27,657 nt of DNA, from positions 1 to 27,657 of the IMG/VR virus record IMGVR_UViG_3300043410_000997; one strand, given 5' to 3'. Positions within the stretch are counted from its first letter, which is position 1. The number at the start of each line of letters is the position of its first letter. The notes under the pieces were generated by a model. That model saw nothing but the letters and a program-made list of their open reading frames with translations, was not told where the DNA came from and did not search any database. The position numbers and the translations under genes are program-made. Positions 3,497 through 17,295 of this stretch are shown piece by piece. The DNA is from a virus.

Positions 3497-4788
3497 TGCT
3501 CAACAACTTGATTGAGAATCGTGCCATCAACTTCCAAACTGTTTGGGGTGCTGGTGGTGACTTGGCTATGGCGAATAACGCTGGAGTCATTGTCAACAAC
3601 AAGACTGCGTTTGAGATTGTTGCTTTCACTTCCGCCGTTAGCCTGATTGCTGACACTATTTCGACCCTGCCAGTTGACTGCTTCGTGCGTAATAACGGTG
3701 ACCGTAAGCCTTACCGACCTAAGCCAGCTTGGGTTGACCAGCCAGATGTCGACCAAACTAAGGCCGGTCACTACAACTCTGTTCTCGTAAGCCTGATGGT
3801 TGACGGTAACGCTTTCGTGCGAGTCTTCAGGGATCGTGCTGGCGAAGTCGTGAACCTTGTTTGCCTTGACCCTAGCACCGTAACTGTGAAGCGTAACGCT
3901 CTCGGTCGCAAGATTTTCGAGGTCGTAGGCGAAGACAAAGCTTTAGACGCTACTGACTTAATGCACATTACTGACTTGCTTGAGCCTGGTGCTTTGCGTG
4001 GCATGAGTCGTGTAACCCGTTTGGCTGATGCTCTTGGTGTTGCTACTGCTTTGCAACAGTATGCGGCTCGTTTCTTCGGTCAGGGTGCTTCGATGTCGGG
4101 TGTCATTGAGTATCCAGGTGCGCTTTCGGCACAACAGGCCAAGGATTTGTCTGACGCATTTGACGCACGTCACCGAGGTCTTTCCCGCGCTCACCGTACC
4201 GGCGTTATTTCGGGTGGTGCAAAGTTCAGTTCGACTCAGGTCACTAACGATGCTGCACAGTTCCTAGAGTCACGCCGTTTCGCTGTTGAGGAAATCGCTC
4301 GCCTCTATAACATTCCGTTGAGCATGATGGGTGTTCCAGGTACTCAGTCTTATGCTTCGGTTGAACAGAACGCCATTCAGTTCGTTACTCACACTCTGCG
4401 CCCTTACATTGAGAAACTTGAGTGGTCGTACAGCCGTCTATTGCCCGATAGTGCCTTCTTGAAGTTCAATGTGGATGGTTTGCTTCGCGGTGACTTCAAC
4501 AGCCGTATTCAGGCTTACAGCGTTGCTATTCAGGGCGGTTGGGAGTCAATCAACGACATTCGCCGTCTTGAAGATCAGTCACCAGTTGAGGGTGGCGATG
4601 TTTATCGTGTACCACTAGCCAATGTGAACCTGTCGGCTGCTGACATTCCTGAAATGGAAGGTAAAGTCGGTATGGCTACTGCCCTCATTGAAGCAGGTTT
4701 CGACCCCGCCGATGTTATGGCAAAGCTCGGTCTGCCAGCGATTCAGCACGATGGCGGCATTCCAACTACGCTTCAGGCTGGTGCTTAG
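3496..4788 (+). CDS. Portal protein (HK97 family)
   Basis: A 430-residue portal protein. The order (after terminase, before protease and capsid) and motifs fit the HK97-type portal family: the N-terminal segment FEIVAFTSAVSLIADTISTLPV, a central LYNIPLSMMG segment, and the downstream ASVEQNAIQFVTHTLRPYIEKLE helix. Twelve copies form the ring at one head vertex through which DNA enters and the tail attaches. The ATG overlaps the stop of the small membrane protein by one base. Confidence 0.95.
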   Translation: MLNNLIENRAINFQTVWGAGGDLAMANNAGVIVNNKTAFEIVAFTSAVSLIADTISTLPVDCFVRNNGDRKPYRPKPAWVDQPDVDQTKAGHYNSVLVSLMVDGNAFVRVFRDRAGEVVNLVCLDPSTVTVKRNALGRKIFEVVGEDKALDATDLMHITDLLEPGALRGMSRVTRLADALGVATALQQYAARFFGQGASMSGVIEYPGALSAQQAKDLSDAFDARHRGLSRAHRTGVISGGAKFSSTQVTNDAAQFLESRRFAVEEIARLYNIPLSMMGVPGTQSYASVEQNAIQFVTHTLRPYIEKLEWSYSRLLPDSAFLKFNVDGLLRGDFNSRIQAYSVAIQGGWESINDIRRLEDQSPVEGGDVYRVPLANVNLSAADIPEMEGKVGMATALIEAGFDPADVMAKLGLPAIQHDGGIPTTLQAGA

Positions 4789-5048: not shown

Positions 5049-6590
5049 ATGCCGTATTCGATTACTGATAAGAACCCTGACTGCAATGGTTGGGCTGTTG
5101 TTGATCCTGATAATAAGGTTTTCGGTTGTCATTTGACTAAGGCTTCGGCTATTAAGCAGGCTGTTGCTATTAGTTTGGCTACTGATGAACCGTTTGTTGG
5201 TGAGCGTAAAGCTGACGGTAACCCTATTGTCATTGTGGACATTGATGGCACTCTGATTTATAGTGGCCGACTTAGCCAGCGAGTCTATGAATACGCTAAG
5301 AGTCTTGAGGGTGCGATTTACATTGTCACCGGTAGACCAGAGTCAGAGCGTGACGCTACGGCATCCGAACTGCATGATTTAGGTGTGTCTTACAGTCGTT
5401 TGATTATGAATCCAGGTTCAACAAGCGATTCGGTAGACTATAAAAAGGCTACTGCTGAGAAGTTGCTTGAAACTTTTAATGTTGTTGCCGCTATTGAGAA
5501 TAACCCTGATGCGCTTCGTGCGTATCGTTCGCTTGGTATTGATGCTATTGATCCTGCATCGATTCCAGAACAGAAGGCATTTATGACTGAACAAACCCGC
5601 GCACTACCGAGCGAAGTTGCTCTAGGTGATTTCGTTGCTTGGCTGGTACAGACTGAGGCTTTTGCTGGTCAGATTGTAGGCCTTGAGGGTGACATGGCTA
5701 AGGTCATGTTGTGGGATGACGAGGAAGATTGCTGGTCACCTATGGGCGTTGAAGCGAATGTTGCTATCAGTGAGTTGAAGGTCATTGATCCGCTGGTCGT
5801 AGAAGAAATGCCTACGCTAACCGAATCAAGCATTATTCCTACTCGCAGTAAGTGGTTGAACGCTGCTTACGCTATCAAGGCTCGTATCGAAGACGGTACT
5901 CCTGAAGCCCGTTCGCTAGGCAAGCACGAGATTCGCACTAAGCAGATGGAACTTCGTGCTATCGGTGATGGCATGACTTTTGAAGGTTATGCAGCCGTAT
6001 TCAACAGCCCTAGCGAGCCACTACCTTTCACCGAGATTGTTGCACCAGGAGCGTTCGCTCGTTCGTTGAAGTCACGCAACCGAATGATGTTGCTTTGGAA
6101 TCACGACACCAACGAGCCACTAGCCAGCACTCGTAACGGTTCGCTCCGCATGGTCGAAGACGCTACCGGTCTGAAGGTAACCGCTACCCTGCCTGATACT
6201 ACTCGTGGTCGTGATGTGGCCGAACTTGTGCGTACCGGTGTCATTGATTCGATGTCGTTTGGTTTCAGCGTGAAAAAGGATTCGTGGTCGACTGATGGTC
6301 AGACCCGTACCTTGCAAGATGTAACGCTCTACGAAGTGAGCCTTGTCAGCCAGCCAGCCTATGAGGGTACTGCGGGTAAGACTTCGGTTCGTGAAGCAGG
6401 TATCGATGCAGATGCTCTTGCTGATGCCCTCCAGCGTCTAGAAACTGGTGAGGAACTTTCCCGCGATCAGGCAACTATCATTAATCAGATAGTTGATAAA
6501 CTAAAGACCCCTGAAGAAGTAGACGCTATCGAAGCAGACCTGCTTGCTTTGAAGAAGAAGAAACTTGAGATTATGGAGATGTCTGCGTGA
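5049..6590 (+). CDS. Prohead protease fused to HAD-like phosphatase and SH3-like domain
   Basis: A 513-residue multidomain protein. Residues 1-50 form a small domain (DCNGWAVVDPDNKVFGCHLTK) also seen on other phage head proteases. Residues about 58-172 form a HAD-type phosphatase: VDIDGTL with D64 and D66, VTGRPE with T94, K132/K133, and IENNPDA around 149-155. Residues about 186-250 look like an SH3-like barrel. Residues about 293-450 are the U35 prohead protease, with H352 in WNHD and S403 in SMSFGF. The tail after 450 is charged and helical. The protease matures the capsid and clears scaffold. What the phosphatase acts on is unknown. It starts at an ATG directly after the preceding stop. 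Confidence 0.9.
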   Translation: MPYSITDKNPDCNGWAVVDPDNKVFGCHLTKASAIKQAVAISLATDEPFVGERKADGNPIVIVDIDGTLIYSGRLSQRVYEYAKSLEGAIYIVTGRPESERDATASELHDLGVSYSRLIMNPGSTSDSVDYKKATAEKLLETFNVVAAIENNPDALRAYRSLGIDAIDPASIPEQKAFMTEQTRALPSEVALGDFVAWLVQTEAFAGQIVGLEGDMAKVMLWDDEEDCWSPMGVEANVAISELKVIDPLVVEEMPTLTESSIIPTRSKWLNAAYAIKARIEDGTPEARSLGKHEIRTKQMELRAIGDGMTFEGYAAVFNSPSEPLPFTEIVAPGAFARSLKSRNRMMLLWNHDTNEPLASTRNGSLRMVEDATGLKVTATLPDTTRGRDVAELVRTGVIDSMSFGFSVKKDSWSTDGQTRTLQDVTLYEVSLVSQPAYEGTAGKTSVREAGIDADALADALQRLETGEELSRDQATIINQIVDKLKTPEEVDAIEADLLALKKKKLEIMEMSA

Positions 6591-6770: not shown

Positions 6771-6815
6771 GACCCTGCCAGAGTTCCTTCCTTTCGCTGG
6801 CAGGGTCTTTCCTTT
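6771..6815 (+). terminator. Intrinsic terminator before capsid unit
   Basis: An 11-bp perfect stem, GACCCTGCCAG (6771-6781) with CTGGCAGGGTC (6797-6807), is followed by TTTCCTTT. It would end the packaging/portal/protease transcript and so isolate the capsid gene behind it. Confidence 0.8.
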
Positions 6816-6823
6816 GCTAAAAT
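6815..6823 (+). promoter_or_regulatory. Candidate extended -10 promoter for the capsid unit
   Basis: TGCTAAAAT reads as an extended -10 element (TGN then TAAAAT) immediately after the terminator. No convincing -35 box is present at the usual spacing. Transcription would begin near 6830 and cover the leader, the tmRNA-like RNA and the capsid gene. The terminator in front makes a new promoter here necessary for capsid expression. Confidence 0.5.
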
Positions 6824-6829
6824 AGACTC

Positions 6830-6909
6830 AAGCGCCCGCCCAAGCCTCTCAACGATGCGCACCTGGCTCACTTTGTGAGTGCTGATCTAGACAGTAGCGG
6901 GCTTCTTAT
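6830..6909 (+). promoter_or_regulatory. Structured leader upstream of the tmRNA-like RNA
   Basis: No credible coding frame. GCCCGC (6834-6839) can pair with GCGGGC (6897-6902), enclosing about 57 bases, and inside this a hairpin CTCAC/GTGAG (6867-6871 with 6875-6879) closes a TTT loop. The outer stem ends a few bases before the 5' end of the tmRNA-like element. It may be a separate folding domain or a precursor piece removed during 5' processing. Confidence 0.4.
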
Positions 6910-6992
6910 GGGTTTGGAATAGTTTCGATTACTGACTAAAACTCTCATGGAGAAGCAGTAAGACCAGGGTGCAACTCCCTGCAAATCCACCA
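6910..6992 (+). ncRNA. tmRNA-like (tRNA-like) RNA lacking a messenger domain
   Basis: An 83-base element folds like the tRNA-like domain of tmRNA. The acceptor stem is GGGTTTG (6910-6916) with CAAATCC (6982-6988), all seven positions paired, and the third pair is G:U, the alanine identity element G3:U70. Discriminator A (6989) and an encoded CCA (6990-6992) follow. The T-arm is CAGGG/CCCTG (6965-6969, 6977-6981) with the 7-base loop TGCAACT. Instead of a D-arm there is a TTTCGAT stretch (6923-6929), matching the conserved UUCGA segment of tmRNA. A helix TTACTG/CAGTAA (6929-6934, 6956-6961) stands where tmRNA helix 2 begins, and GTAAGACC leads into the T-arm as in tmRNA. The tag reading frame and pseudoknots are absent; only a small TCTC/GAGA hairpin caps the helix. 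Known: the tmRNA consensus. Inferred: that this is transcribed and functional. Confidence 0.75.
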
Positions 6993-7022
6993 TGTAAAGC
7001 GTGTATTAGACTTGAATAGACG

Positions 7023-7066
7023 GTTCAGCGTTTGCGCGGCCTCATACTGTTCAGCGTTTGCGCGGC
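7023..7066 (+). repeat. Two 18-bp direct repeats before the capsid gene
   Basis: GTTCAGCGTTTGCGCGGC occurs exactly at 7023-7040 and 7049-7066, a 26-bp period. Each copy contains GCG-TTTG-CGC, which could form a tiny hairpin in RNA. The two copies lie between the tmRNA-like element and the capsid ribosome binding site. The roughly 2.5-turn spacing would put two protein sites on nearly opposite helix faces; an RNA role is equally possible. Confidence 0.75.
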
Positions 7067-7101: not shown

Positions 7102-8262
7102 ATGTCGGAGTTCATTAAGACTCAGGCTGAGGTTCGCAGCAACCTGATTGCTCAGATGCGTGAGGTTATTGACCTTGCTGAAGCTGAGAAGCGTGGTCTT
7201 ACTGCTGAGGACACTCAGAAAATCGCTCGTCTAGAAGCAGATATCGAAGCTCGTGACGCAGCAATCGAAACCGCTCAGAAGGTAGAGGCTCGTTCCGCTG
7301 CTGCTGCTGAGGCCGCTAACCAGTTCGTTCCTGCTGAGGTTGCTACCCGCACCGATGCAGACCTGTTCCGCGCTATCGCTCGTGGCGAGATGCGTAACGC
7401 AGAGTTCGCTCGTGAGAAGCGTGCCGCTCTGGTCAACAGCTCGAACACCGTTCCAACTGGTTTCTATGACCAGGTATTCCAGATCGCTACCCTTGTTGGC
7501 CCAATGCTGGCCACCTCGGAGGTTTTCAACACCACTTCGGGTGAAAACCTAGTTATCCCAACCGTAACCGCAATCAGCTCCTCGGCTGCTGTTTCGGCTG
7601 GTTCGGCCATCTCTGAGAGCAACCCAACCTTCAGCAGCATCACCCTTGGTGCTGACAAGTTTGGTGCGCTTGTATCCGTATCGAACGAGCTTCTTGCTGA
7701 CGCTGGTTTCGACATCTCGGCTTACATCGCTCAGGAGCTTGGTACTTCGCTCGGTGTAGCAATCAACACCGCGCTGACCACCGGTACTGCTGGTGTCGCT
7801 ACCTCGGCTGGTTCGGTTGTAACTGGTGGAACTGGTGTATCGGGTGCTTTCACTTACGAGAACATCATTGACCTCGTTTACGGTATCGCTGACGGTGCGC
7901 GTGTTCTTCCAGGTCTGGGCTTCCAGATGTCGAAGACCGGTATCGCTACCGCTCGTAAGCTGAAGGATGGCTCTGGCCGTTACATTTGGACTGACTCGGC
8001 TGTTGCTGGTCAGCCAGCACAGCTCCTCGGTTACTCGGTTTACGAGAACCCTGCCGTTGCTGCTGTTGCTACCGGTGCTAAGTCGGTTCTGTTCGGTCAC
8101 CTGCCTTCGTACAAGGTTCGTGTTGCTGGTGGAATCAATGTTGCTCAGTCTTCGGACTACGCATTCAACACCGATGTAACTACCTTCCGCGGTATTGTTC
8201 GTGTTGGTGGCGGTCTGACTCACGCAACTCACATTGGTTACTTCAAGGGTGGCGCAAGCTAA
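7102..8262 (+). CDS. Major capsid protein (HK97 gp5 fold)
   Basis: A 386-residue capsid protein. Residues 1 to about 75 are a charged coiled-coil delta domain that the prohead protease is expected to remove. The shell domain follows, with TGFYDQVFQIATLVGPML near residues 114-131 as in HK97-type capsids. A very strong ribosome binding site AAAGGAG lies 7 bases before the ATG. The codon choice is unusually rich in C-ending codons (ATC, ACC, AAC, TTC) compared with neighbours, as expected of the most abundant virion protein. It stands alone between two terminators. Confidence 0.95.
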   Translation: MSEFIKTQAEVRSNLIAQMREVIDLAEAEKRGLTAEDTQKIARLEADIEARDAAIETAQKVEARSAAAAEAANQFVPAEVATRTDADLFRAIARGEMRNAEFAREKRAALVNSSNTVPTGFYDQVFQIATLVGPMLATSEVFNTTSGENLVIPTVTAISSSAAVSAGSAISESNPTFSSITLGADKFGALVSVSNELLADAGFDISAYIAQELGTSLGVAINTALTTGTAGVATSAGSVVTGGTGVSGAFTYENIIDLVYGIADGARVLPGLGFQMSKTGIATARKLKDGSGRYIWTDSAVAGQPAQLLGYSVYENPAVAAVATGAKSVLFGHLPSYKVRVAGGINVAQSSDYAFNTDVTTFRGIVRVGGGLTHATHIGYFKGGAS

Positions 8263-15537: not shown

Positions 15538-16760
15538 TGTCTAGGCCTGTTCAAAAGGTTGAGCTTGGTTTCGGTGACAACGCTCCAGGTAACTGGTTTA
15601 CTTTGGATAACGCTACTCGTGGTGTTTTGGATGGTTCGACTTATGTGTTGTCGGGTGCGTCTTACTATGACATTACGCAGTATGTGAAGAATGTGTCGGT
15701 GCAGCGTGGTAAGAACCGCGAACTTGACCGTTTCAATGCTGGCCGTATCAGTATCACTGTCGATAACCGTACTCGTTTGTTTGACCCGACTTTCGCTGCA
15801 TCACCGTTTTATGGTCAGATCGTGCCGAGGCGTGACATTCGTTACACTGCCGGTACTGCTGTTCAGTTCACTGGTTTGGTTGATGACTGGAATCTTGACT
15901 ACACCCCTGACCGTCAGTCGACTGCTTCGGCTACGGGTTATGACGGGTTTTCGCTTCTCGCCGGTCAGGTGTTGACTGGTGGTACTGCTACTAGTCAGTT
16001 GTCGGGTGCGCGTATTAACGCGGTTTTGAATGACCCTAAAGTGAACTGGTCTGCGACTACTCGCGCGATTGATGCGGGTCAAGAGACTTTGCAGGCTGAT
16101 GTGATTGCAGCGAATCAGGATGTTATTTCGTACATTAATACGATTGAGCAGACTGAGCCTGGTGTGTTCTTTATGGATAAAAAGAACTTTGCGACTTTCA
16201 AGGATCGTGCTTCGATTGTTGCTTCTAGCACTGCACCTATTTTGGCTGATGATGGTTCGGGTATTCCTTACAGCCAGATTAAGGTTGTGTATGGTTCTGA
16301 GCTTCTATACAACCAGGTTGTTGCTACTCGTTTGAATGGTGGTACGGCTACTGCGAATGATGCGACTTCGCAAGCTGCTTATGGTATTCGTACTTGGGAA
16401 CTGAATGGGTTGCTGCATAATACTGATTTGGCGATGGCGAATCTTGCGGCTTATCTTGTGAATCAGTATTCGACTCCTGAGTTCCGCTTTGAATCTGTCG
16501 ATATTGTGTTGAATGATTTGACTCCAACTCAGCAGACTACTTTGTTGAATCTTGAGATTGGTCAGGTTTGCAACATTGTCTTTACCCCGAATGGTATTAC
16601 TCCAGCTATTAACAAGATGGCTGAAGTGTTGGGTATTAGTCACATTGTTGATGCTGAGGTTCATCGCATGGTTTTGAACTTCCAAACCCTTGACCTTGGT
16701 TTGTTTATTCTGGATGATACTAGGTTCGGTTTGCTAGACTTGAATTCGTTGGGATTATAG
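15537..16760 (+). CDS. Minor tail protein (distal tail / tail tip)
   Basis: A 407-residue protein; GTG overlaps the tape measure TAG. YDITQYVKNVSVQRGKNRELDRFNAGRI and VDNRTRLFDP are hallmark segments of a minor tail family that follows the tape measure in many actinobacterial phages. It probably forms the baseplate or tail tip. The fold looks beta-rich. No enzymatic motif is visible. The family assignment is good; the exact position in the tail is inference from gene order. Confidence 0.82.
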   Translation: MSRPVQKVELGFGDNAPGNWFTLDNATRGVLDGSTYVLSGASYYDITQYVKNVSVQRGKNRELDRFNAGRISITVDNRTRLFDPTFAASPFYGQIVPRRDIRYTAGTAVQFTGLVDDWNLDYTPDRQSTASATGYDGFSLLAGQVLTGGTATSQLSGARINAVLNDPKVNWSATTRAIDAGQETLQADVIAANQDVISYINTIEQTEPGVFFMDKKNFATFKDRASIVASSTAPILADDGSGIPYSQIKVVYGSELLYNQVVATRLNGGTATANDATSQAAYGIRTWELNGLLHNTDLAMANLAAYLVNQYSTPEFRFESVDIVLNDLTPTQQTTLLNLEIGQVCNIVFTPNGITPAINKMAEVLGISHIVDAEVHRMVLNFQTLDLGLFILDDTRFGLLDLNSLGL

Positions 16761-16770
16761 GAGTTTTATT

Positions 16771-17295
16771 ATGGCCGGTGCTGGCTGGAGAACATTTACT
16801 TCGGGTGCGGTTTTGACTGCTGCTCAGGTTCAGACTTATTTGCAGGATCAGGTTGTTCAGGTTTATGCGTCTACTTCTGCCCGTACTGCTGCTCTAGGTA
16901 CTTCTGTTAGTGCCGGTATGGTGTCGTTTATTACTGGTACTGAAGGCCTGGATGTTTACACTCACGGTTCGTGGACTGGTCTAAACTATTCGACTGTTCA
17001 GAATGGTACGGTTGCTGCCTATACTGCGACTGCGAACGATGCGAACACTCTCTATGTTTTGAGCTCGGCTTCGGCTCAGACTTTCACGATCCCTGACTTG
17101 TTTGATATTGGTGAGCGTGTGGATATTATTCGTGATGGTGCGGGTACTGTGACTATTGCTGCGGGTACTGGTATGACTACTTTGGCTGGTGCTGGTACGG
17201 CTAAGTCTTCGTTTACGATTAGTCAGCAGTATGGTGCTGCTTCGGTGACTAAGGTTGCAGCGAATTCGTATCGTATTGTTGGAAGTATTGCCTGA
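16771..17295 (+). CDS. Minor tail protein, fibre-like (174 aa)
   Basis: TAGGAG precedes the ATG. The opening GWRTFTSGAVLTAAQVQTYLQDQVVQVYAS is a motif seen at the start of many actinophage tail or fibre proteins and probably attaches to the tail tip. The C-terminal part (about residues 80-174) is a Thr/Ala/Gly-rich beta region (FTIPDLFDIGERVDIIRDGAGTVTI) typical of tail spikes and fibres. Its stop overlaps the next ATG. Confidence 0.75.
   Translation: MAGAGWRTFTSGAVLTAAQVQTYLQDQVVQVYASTSARTAALGTSVSAGMVSFITGTEGLDVYTHGSWTGLNYSTVQNGTVAAYTATANDANTLYVLSSASAQTFTIPDLFDIGERVDIIRDGAGTVTIAAGTGMTTLAGAGTAKSSFTISQQYGAASVTKVAANSYRIVGSIA

Follow-up and report, generated by a model that had tools for sequence, protein, structure and literature searches.

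A mini-tmRNA gene upstream of a phage capsid gene as a candidate decoy of host trans-translation

Positions 6910-6992 of the IMG/VR virus record IMGVR_UViG_3300043410_000997 carry a gene for a transfer-messenger RNA (tmRNA) reduced to its tRNA-like domain (TLD). The window, i.e., the whole stretch of DNA analyzed, comprises 27,657 nucleotides (positions 1 to 27,657 of that record), and the element and the signals flanking it lie on its plus strand. The mini-tmRNA has a complete TLD, without messenger domain and without pseudoknots. Its identity, its structure, the conservation of its alanine determinants, its autonomous arrangement and its near-restriction to phages are directly supported by the comparisons made. 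A TLD-only phage tmRNA is already known from mycobacteriophage DS6A, and the window element and its family, judged by anatomy, belong to the same kind. We consider it probable that the gene is an accessory one whose product serves as an alanine-chargeable decoy and competitor of host tmRNA, both for SmpB and at stalled ribosomes.

A covariance search with the tmRNA model and with a new family model, as suggested in an annotation made from the sequence alone (hereafter the first-pass annotation), recovered the element family with covarying helices. The Rfam tmRNA model (RF00023) covers the window element end to end (model positions 1-374; 33.5 bits, E 7.1e-12, 511 nt searched); the score is below the gathering score of 47 bits, and the whole middle of the model is deleted in the alignment. 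That deletion is confined to the messenger domain, in agreement with the earlier reading that tag frame and pseudoknots are missing. Many relatives score above the gathering threshold, at 52-77 bits, and a match above it was obtained in 13 of 18 sampled carrier records. A covariance model (R1) built from 22 other elements, with the window sequence left out, recovers the element at 59.1 bits (E 2.5e-13; 665 kb searched, only the element family scored), and ordinary tRNAs reach at most about 33 bits with this model. The element is not a tRNA: it has no cloverleaf with D-arm and anticodon arm, the best model of the clan is tmRNA, and ARAGORN made no call for it and missed its relatives as well. 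No match was obtained when the window region was compared with phages by BLASTN.

Relative to standard tmRNA, both halves of the TLD align end to end, with G3.U70, UUCGA, GAC, T-arm and CCA, whereas about 290 nt containing the tag frame, the resume codon and all pseudoknots are lacking. Permuted two-piece tmRNAs (RF04321; e.g., phage Melnitz, PMC9004378) share homology in the TLD, but the window element is one uninterrupted molecule with its halves in standard order, and it scores 16.1 bits with that model. Loci of another type were noticed in T4-like contigs (L004, L039, L044, L095 and similar), where a late-promoter-like TATAAATA is followed by TTCGATGAAG... and then by a tmRNA 3' end; these are probably permuted or two-piece tmRNA genes.

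The anatomy is that of a tmRNA TLD in 83 nt, and each feature listed in the first-pass annotation is present. The 5' strand of the acceptor stem, GGGUUUG (6910-6916), pairs at 7 of 7 positions, G3.U70 included, with CAAAUCC (6982-6988), and the stem covaries among relatives. Alignment to RF00023 places the UUCGA of the D-loop analogue at 6924-6928, in the reduced D-region that forms the SmpB-contacting elbow in tmRNA; a D-stem is absent around it. Helix 2 and its cap (6929-6961) stand in place of the whole messenger domain. The helix (6929-6934/6956-6961) is closed by an internal loop ACUAAAA and a hairpin CUC/GAG (6942-6944/6950-6952), consistent with the family consensus AAARCCGCANGCGGAA and with covariation. 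The lead GTAAGACC opens into a T-arm, CAGGG-UGCAACU-CCCUG (6965-6981; 5 bp with a 7-nt loop), which was read from the sequence, the fold and covariation. The discriminator A (6989) and an encoded CCA (6990-6992) complete the molecule, in which UUCGA and GAC are 33 nt apart. Folding energy is unremarkable (z -1.5), a weak signal that is no proof of the element by itself. A miniature tag frame (TKTLMEKQ-stop in the window) was considered and rejected, as none of the frames keeps a stop among the 70 elements compared (per frame, 24-26 of 70).

Relatives were collected from IMG/VR with a pattern combining the D-loop UUCGA and a T-arm at short distance, which matched at least 120 stretches. These matches, together with loci of capsid homologues, yielded 72 distinct short elements whose acceptors pair. 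As UUCGA, GAC and portions of the T-arm were prescribed by the pattern, their invariance in the 72-element set is by construction. A second pair of scans, for which only the inner hairpin and the T-arm served as seed, gave 29 distinct elements, on which statements on D-loop conservation rest; UUCGA was found in 22 of these 29, and the remainder have mostly NUCGA. The family consensus consists of GGGnCTGGATGGTTTCGAC, a helix, the AAARCCGCANGCGGAA hairpin, a helix, GGAC, the T-arm and CAGnTCCA.

The structure is under selection and the element is real. In an alignment of 22 sequences, 95.4% of cells pair and both sides have changed in 14 of 21 pairs; none of 500 shuffled controls was as good on nearly all measures, and pairing was lost when the partners were slid. 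Among 15 distinct R1 matches, mostly from the capsid-adjacent family, both sides have changed in 16 of 21 pairs, in an alignment fitted to R1, which favors pairing counts. The first-pass annotation had noted stems that differ in sequence and keep their pairing, and had tied its case to covariation among phage homologues; both alignments bear it out. The same data dispose of a chance similarity and of a host tmRNA relic left by integration at ssrA (att site), to which we attach practically no probability. Phage integration in ssrA and carriage of 3' tmRNA pieces are common; an integrase-adjacent piece in Gordonia phage Yeezy is an example. Here, however, both ends are present and covary across dozens of sequences, pairing in the acceptor has survived many double changes, and no integrase is adjacent in the window. 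Covariation thus refutes both.

G3.U70 is the pair by which alanyl-tRNA synthetase (AlaRS) identifies tRNA-Ala and tmRNA. We found it in 71 of 72 distinct elements of the first set and in all 29 of the set seeded on hairpin and T-arm, and the discriminator A73 is present without exception (72/72 and 29/29). Neither position was part of any collection pattern. The extraction script takes the best-pairing acceptor offset, which favors pairing in general and not a wobble at position 3, and acceptor pairs 4-6 vary freely, with many forms in the 72-element set. At the sequence level both alanine determinants are thus in place, from which charging may be inferred, and their constancy is what selection for alanylation would predict. 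On TLD, missing messenger domain, alanine identity and selection on structure, the first-pass annotation was right.

The element is essentially phage-borne, as indicated by the few matches in cellular genomes. Bacterial and archaeal species genomes gave 15 stretches with a related pattern; 3 scored as true elements with R1, and one of these (L210) adjoins phage head genes. Among 296 Actinomycetota genomes, one strong and one borderline model match were obtained, the strong one being a carrier already known; a match on a Clavibacter plasmid is weak (31 bits). Cultured phages carry the element unannotated. In Pontimonas phage phiPsal1 it lies 113 nt before the capsid gene and scores 54.6 bits with RF00023; the genome paper holds no further discussion of the phage. 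In Streptomyces phages LuckySocke, GiJojo and BRock it lies inside tRNA arrays, and in GiJojo it overlaps a called hypothetical protein. The capsid encoded in the window is 50% identical to that of phiPsal1, which suggests Microbacteriaceae-like actinobacteria as hosts. Several BLAST matches were examined and set aside: those in S-CRM01 and RpAliso look like permuted tmRNAs, that in Yeezy is the 3' tmRNA piece beside an integrase, and those in PA_L9 and Elezi were not counted as mini-tmRNAs. Two variants were noted separately. An Anaerolineae metagenome-assembled genome (L233; G046:C61:16592-16668 and 16737-16800) has two tandem mini-tmRNAs, the first with the inner hairpin and without UUCGA; in the second, UUCGA is present and the hairpin is plain. 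In L150 and L151 the mini-tmRNA slot upstream of the capsid gene is occupied by a tRNA-like sequence that is divergent and escapes R1; it has a T-arm and an acceptor GGGCTGT/GCAGTCC with G3.U70, but UUCGA is absent.

The window is a 27.7-kb phage record of freshwater type with genes for TerL, portal, protease and HK97 capsid in order. The element lies between the protease operon and the gene for the HK97-type major capsid protein (7102-8262; PHROG 10/617, PF05065), which is a neighbor and not part of the RNA gene. Upstream, an intrinsic terminator of the protease operon was identified at 6771-6815 (stem 6771-6781/6797-6807, 15-nt loop, T-rich tail 6808-6815), and an equivalent one is kept in relatives with and without the insert. 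Directly after it follows a putative -10 box of the mini-tmRNA gene (TAAAAT, 6818-6823), suggested by this position, at which relatives have TATACT, TACACT, TATTCT or TAAAAT. A transcript from this box would have a 5' leader (6830-6909) with a possible stem at 6834-6839/6897-6902 (fold z -0.13, not significant) and would need 5' maturation of the RNase P type. Across the broader family, the stretch 5-9 nt ahead of the element's first G is enriched in TATAAT-like hexamers (9 of 375 positions vs roughly 0.3% elsewhere), so transcription should start at the RNA 5' end in several phages. A second putative -10 box (TAGACT, 7007-7012), proposed from its conserved position, would belong to the capsid gene's own promoter; the same box is found at an equal distance to the capsid start in relatives without mini-tmRNA, and suggests that the capsid mRNA starts downstream of 6992. 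A simple promoter and terminator scan of the window, with a loop limit of 8 nt, reported nothing, as the terminator loop measures 15 nt and the -35 boxes are weak; the assignments were instead made from position and empty sites.

Three natural empty sites with almost the same flanks were found (L198/L154, L139/L138 and L137/L187). The insert, of ~97 to ~370 nt, is bounded precisely by the T-tract of the upstream terminator on one side and by the capsid -10 region on the other, and consists of its own -10-like box, the RNA and sometimes a terminator. At least six changes in presence or absence of the element are required on the capsid tree. Other phages have it upstream of a gene for TerL, portal, helicase, primase or exonuclease. 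These comparisons bear on the earlier description of the element as lying in the leader of the capsid gene, where it might act in cis as a processing signal or as a sensor of translation. A conserved location 80-130 nt before the capsid start is indeed shared by many phages, whose capsids are as little as 44% identical, and by phiPsal1. However, near-identically flanked relatives without the insert keep terminator, capsid promoter and leader, an intrinsic terminator right after the element's 3' end separates it from the capsid gene in L139 and L163, and elsewhere it is found in tRNA arrays or next to unrelated genes. A cis-regulatory leader would belong to the capsid transcript and be required along with it, which does not describe the element. 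We therefore regard a role in cis as very improbable. The empty sites, the intervening promoter-like box or terminator and the unrelated neighbors elsewhere instead mark a self-contained accessory cassette, as far as sequence comparison can tell, located upstream of a separate putative capsid promoter.

Other features of the region were observed in passing. The 5' untranslated region of the capsid gene contains two copies (7023-7040 and 7049-7066) of a hairpin-like repeat, GTTCNGNGTNTNCNCGGC. The repeat recurs in the leaders of those capsid relatives that were inspected, whether or not they carry a mini-tmRNA, phiPsal1 has a similar one, and changes in its stem look compensatory; it appears to be a conserved element of capsid mRNA. 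In L139 (~2010-2200) and L163 (~3770-3900) the mini-tmRNA and its terminator are followed by a second promoter-RNA-terminator-like unit (GCTATACT ... AACCATAAATTTGTCTGTGAGATACCAGAGGGG...), possibly another small RNA gene that was inserted here as well. The prohead protease (S78) reading frame of the window (5049-6590) has a fused N-terminal HAD acid-phosphatase/polynucleotide-kinase-like domain (PF03767, phrog_415).

How might such an RNA act? The mini-tmRNA would be transcribed from its own putative promoter and matured like a tRNA. With the TLD fold and the alanine identity pair it would be charged by host AlaRS, its D-loop/T-loop elbow would bind host SmpB and, when charged, EF-Tu, and it would then be a competitor of host tmRNA for SmpB as well as for stalled ribosomes. 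With no tag template the reaction would end without tagging, and trans-translation would be inhibited or bypassed during infection, presumably to the benefit of the phage. No SmpB gene was found in 42 carrier records (0/42), so the partner must be that of the host and the RNA must use host factors.

A TLD-only tmRNA is on record for mycobacteriophage DS6A (tmRNA Website tmID 11587; Mao et al., 2009, cited in PMC4131195 and PMC11915505), the only phage example of this kind named in these two articles. According to them, a molecule similar to it strongly inhibits tmRNA in E. coli, whether chargeable or not (PMC4131195, PMC11915505). The window element resembles the DS6A RNA, compared here by description only, in being a complete phage-encoded TLD without messenger domain. 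By analogy, members of the present family may inhibit endogenous tmRNA. This published precedent favors an accessory decoy of trans-translation, an idea already raised in the first-pass annotation.

Several observations weigh against a simple decoy. Streptomyces phage Riptide (PV654398) carries a full tmRNA annotated with its tag (94862-95128) together with an unannotated mini-tmRNA (83298-83374) in which UUAGA replaces UUCGA, and contig G009 has a mini/full pair as well (G009:C1:46486-46567 and 77588-77979); a full tmRNA alongside the mini-tmRNA fits poorly with a simple shutdown of trans-translation. The UUCGA is altered in a few members (Riptide, BRock, L139 and L163). Near-universal G3.U70 exceeds what titration of SmpB needs, since an uncharged TLD inhibits too. 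The near-invariant alanine identity and the co-occurrence of full and mini forms argue for more than an SmpB sponge.

The main rival to the decoy is an active role, as it has been reported that SmpB and a TLD fragment yield polyalanine without mRNA in vitro (Shimizu and Ueda, 2006, cited in PMC3929946). A charged mini-tmRNA with SmpB would enter stalled ribosomes, take over the nascent chain and add one or more alanines without template, leaving ribosomes freed or marked without a degradation tag. An alanine identity kept nearly without exception, which a pure sponge would not require, speaks for such rescue, as does the conservation of tag-less mitochondrial tmRNAs together with SmpB (PMC11915505). 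Tag-less tmRNAs of mitochondria and Mallomonadaceae plastids (RF02544; Jacob, 2004; PMC11915505) are likewise TLDs without messenger domain retained by selection. They differ in residing in organelle genomes, the mitochondrial ones being usually permuted and co-occurring with a dedicated SmpB, and presumably have a separate origin. Set against this, the only in vivo result on a similar molecule is inhibition of tmRNA (PMC4131195), and we judge template-less rescue rather unlikely for the window element. For the family we suggest, tentatively and as a possibility only, that a large and hitherto unrecognized group of phage accessory RNAs acts with host SmpB as alanine-charged, template-less rescue or anti-tagging factors rather than as mere sponges, which would explain both the near-invariant alanine identity and the co-carriage with full tmRNA.

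A decoy aimed at another target is less probable still. AlaRS itself, a tRNA-cutting host defense or a non-ribosomal reaction using the RNA as alanine donor would each accord with the near-invariant alanine identity, with the location of some members in phage tRNA arrays and with the accessory distribution. However, no consistent partner gene is found nearby, and the molecule, which has no anticodon arm, retains a D-region of the tmRNA type as well as the GAC lead-in, i.e., its SmpB-facing features.

Before, a single TLD-only phage tmRNA had been recorded, that of DS6A, and it counted as a curiosity. The new aspects are the breadth of the family, a consensus with a conserved inner hairpin, an autonomous cassette with natural empty sites and a conserved charging identity. 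Together they point to a widespread accessory class, with members in cultured phages of Streptomyces, in a Microbacteriaceae phage and in many phages from the environment, which escapes ARAGORN-based annotation. The near-invariant alanine identity offers a handle on function, as a mutant in one pair could tell SmpB titration from an active, charged role. Should trans-translation prove to be blocked or rerouted by these RNAs, ribosome rescue would be a battleground between phage and host, and one that could be tested genetically.
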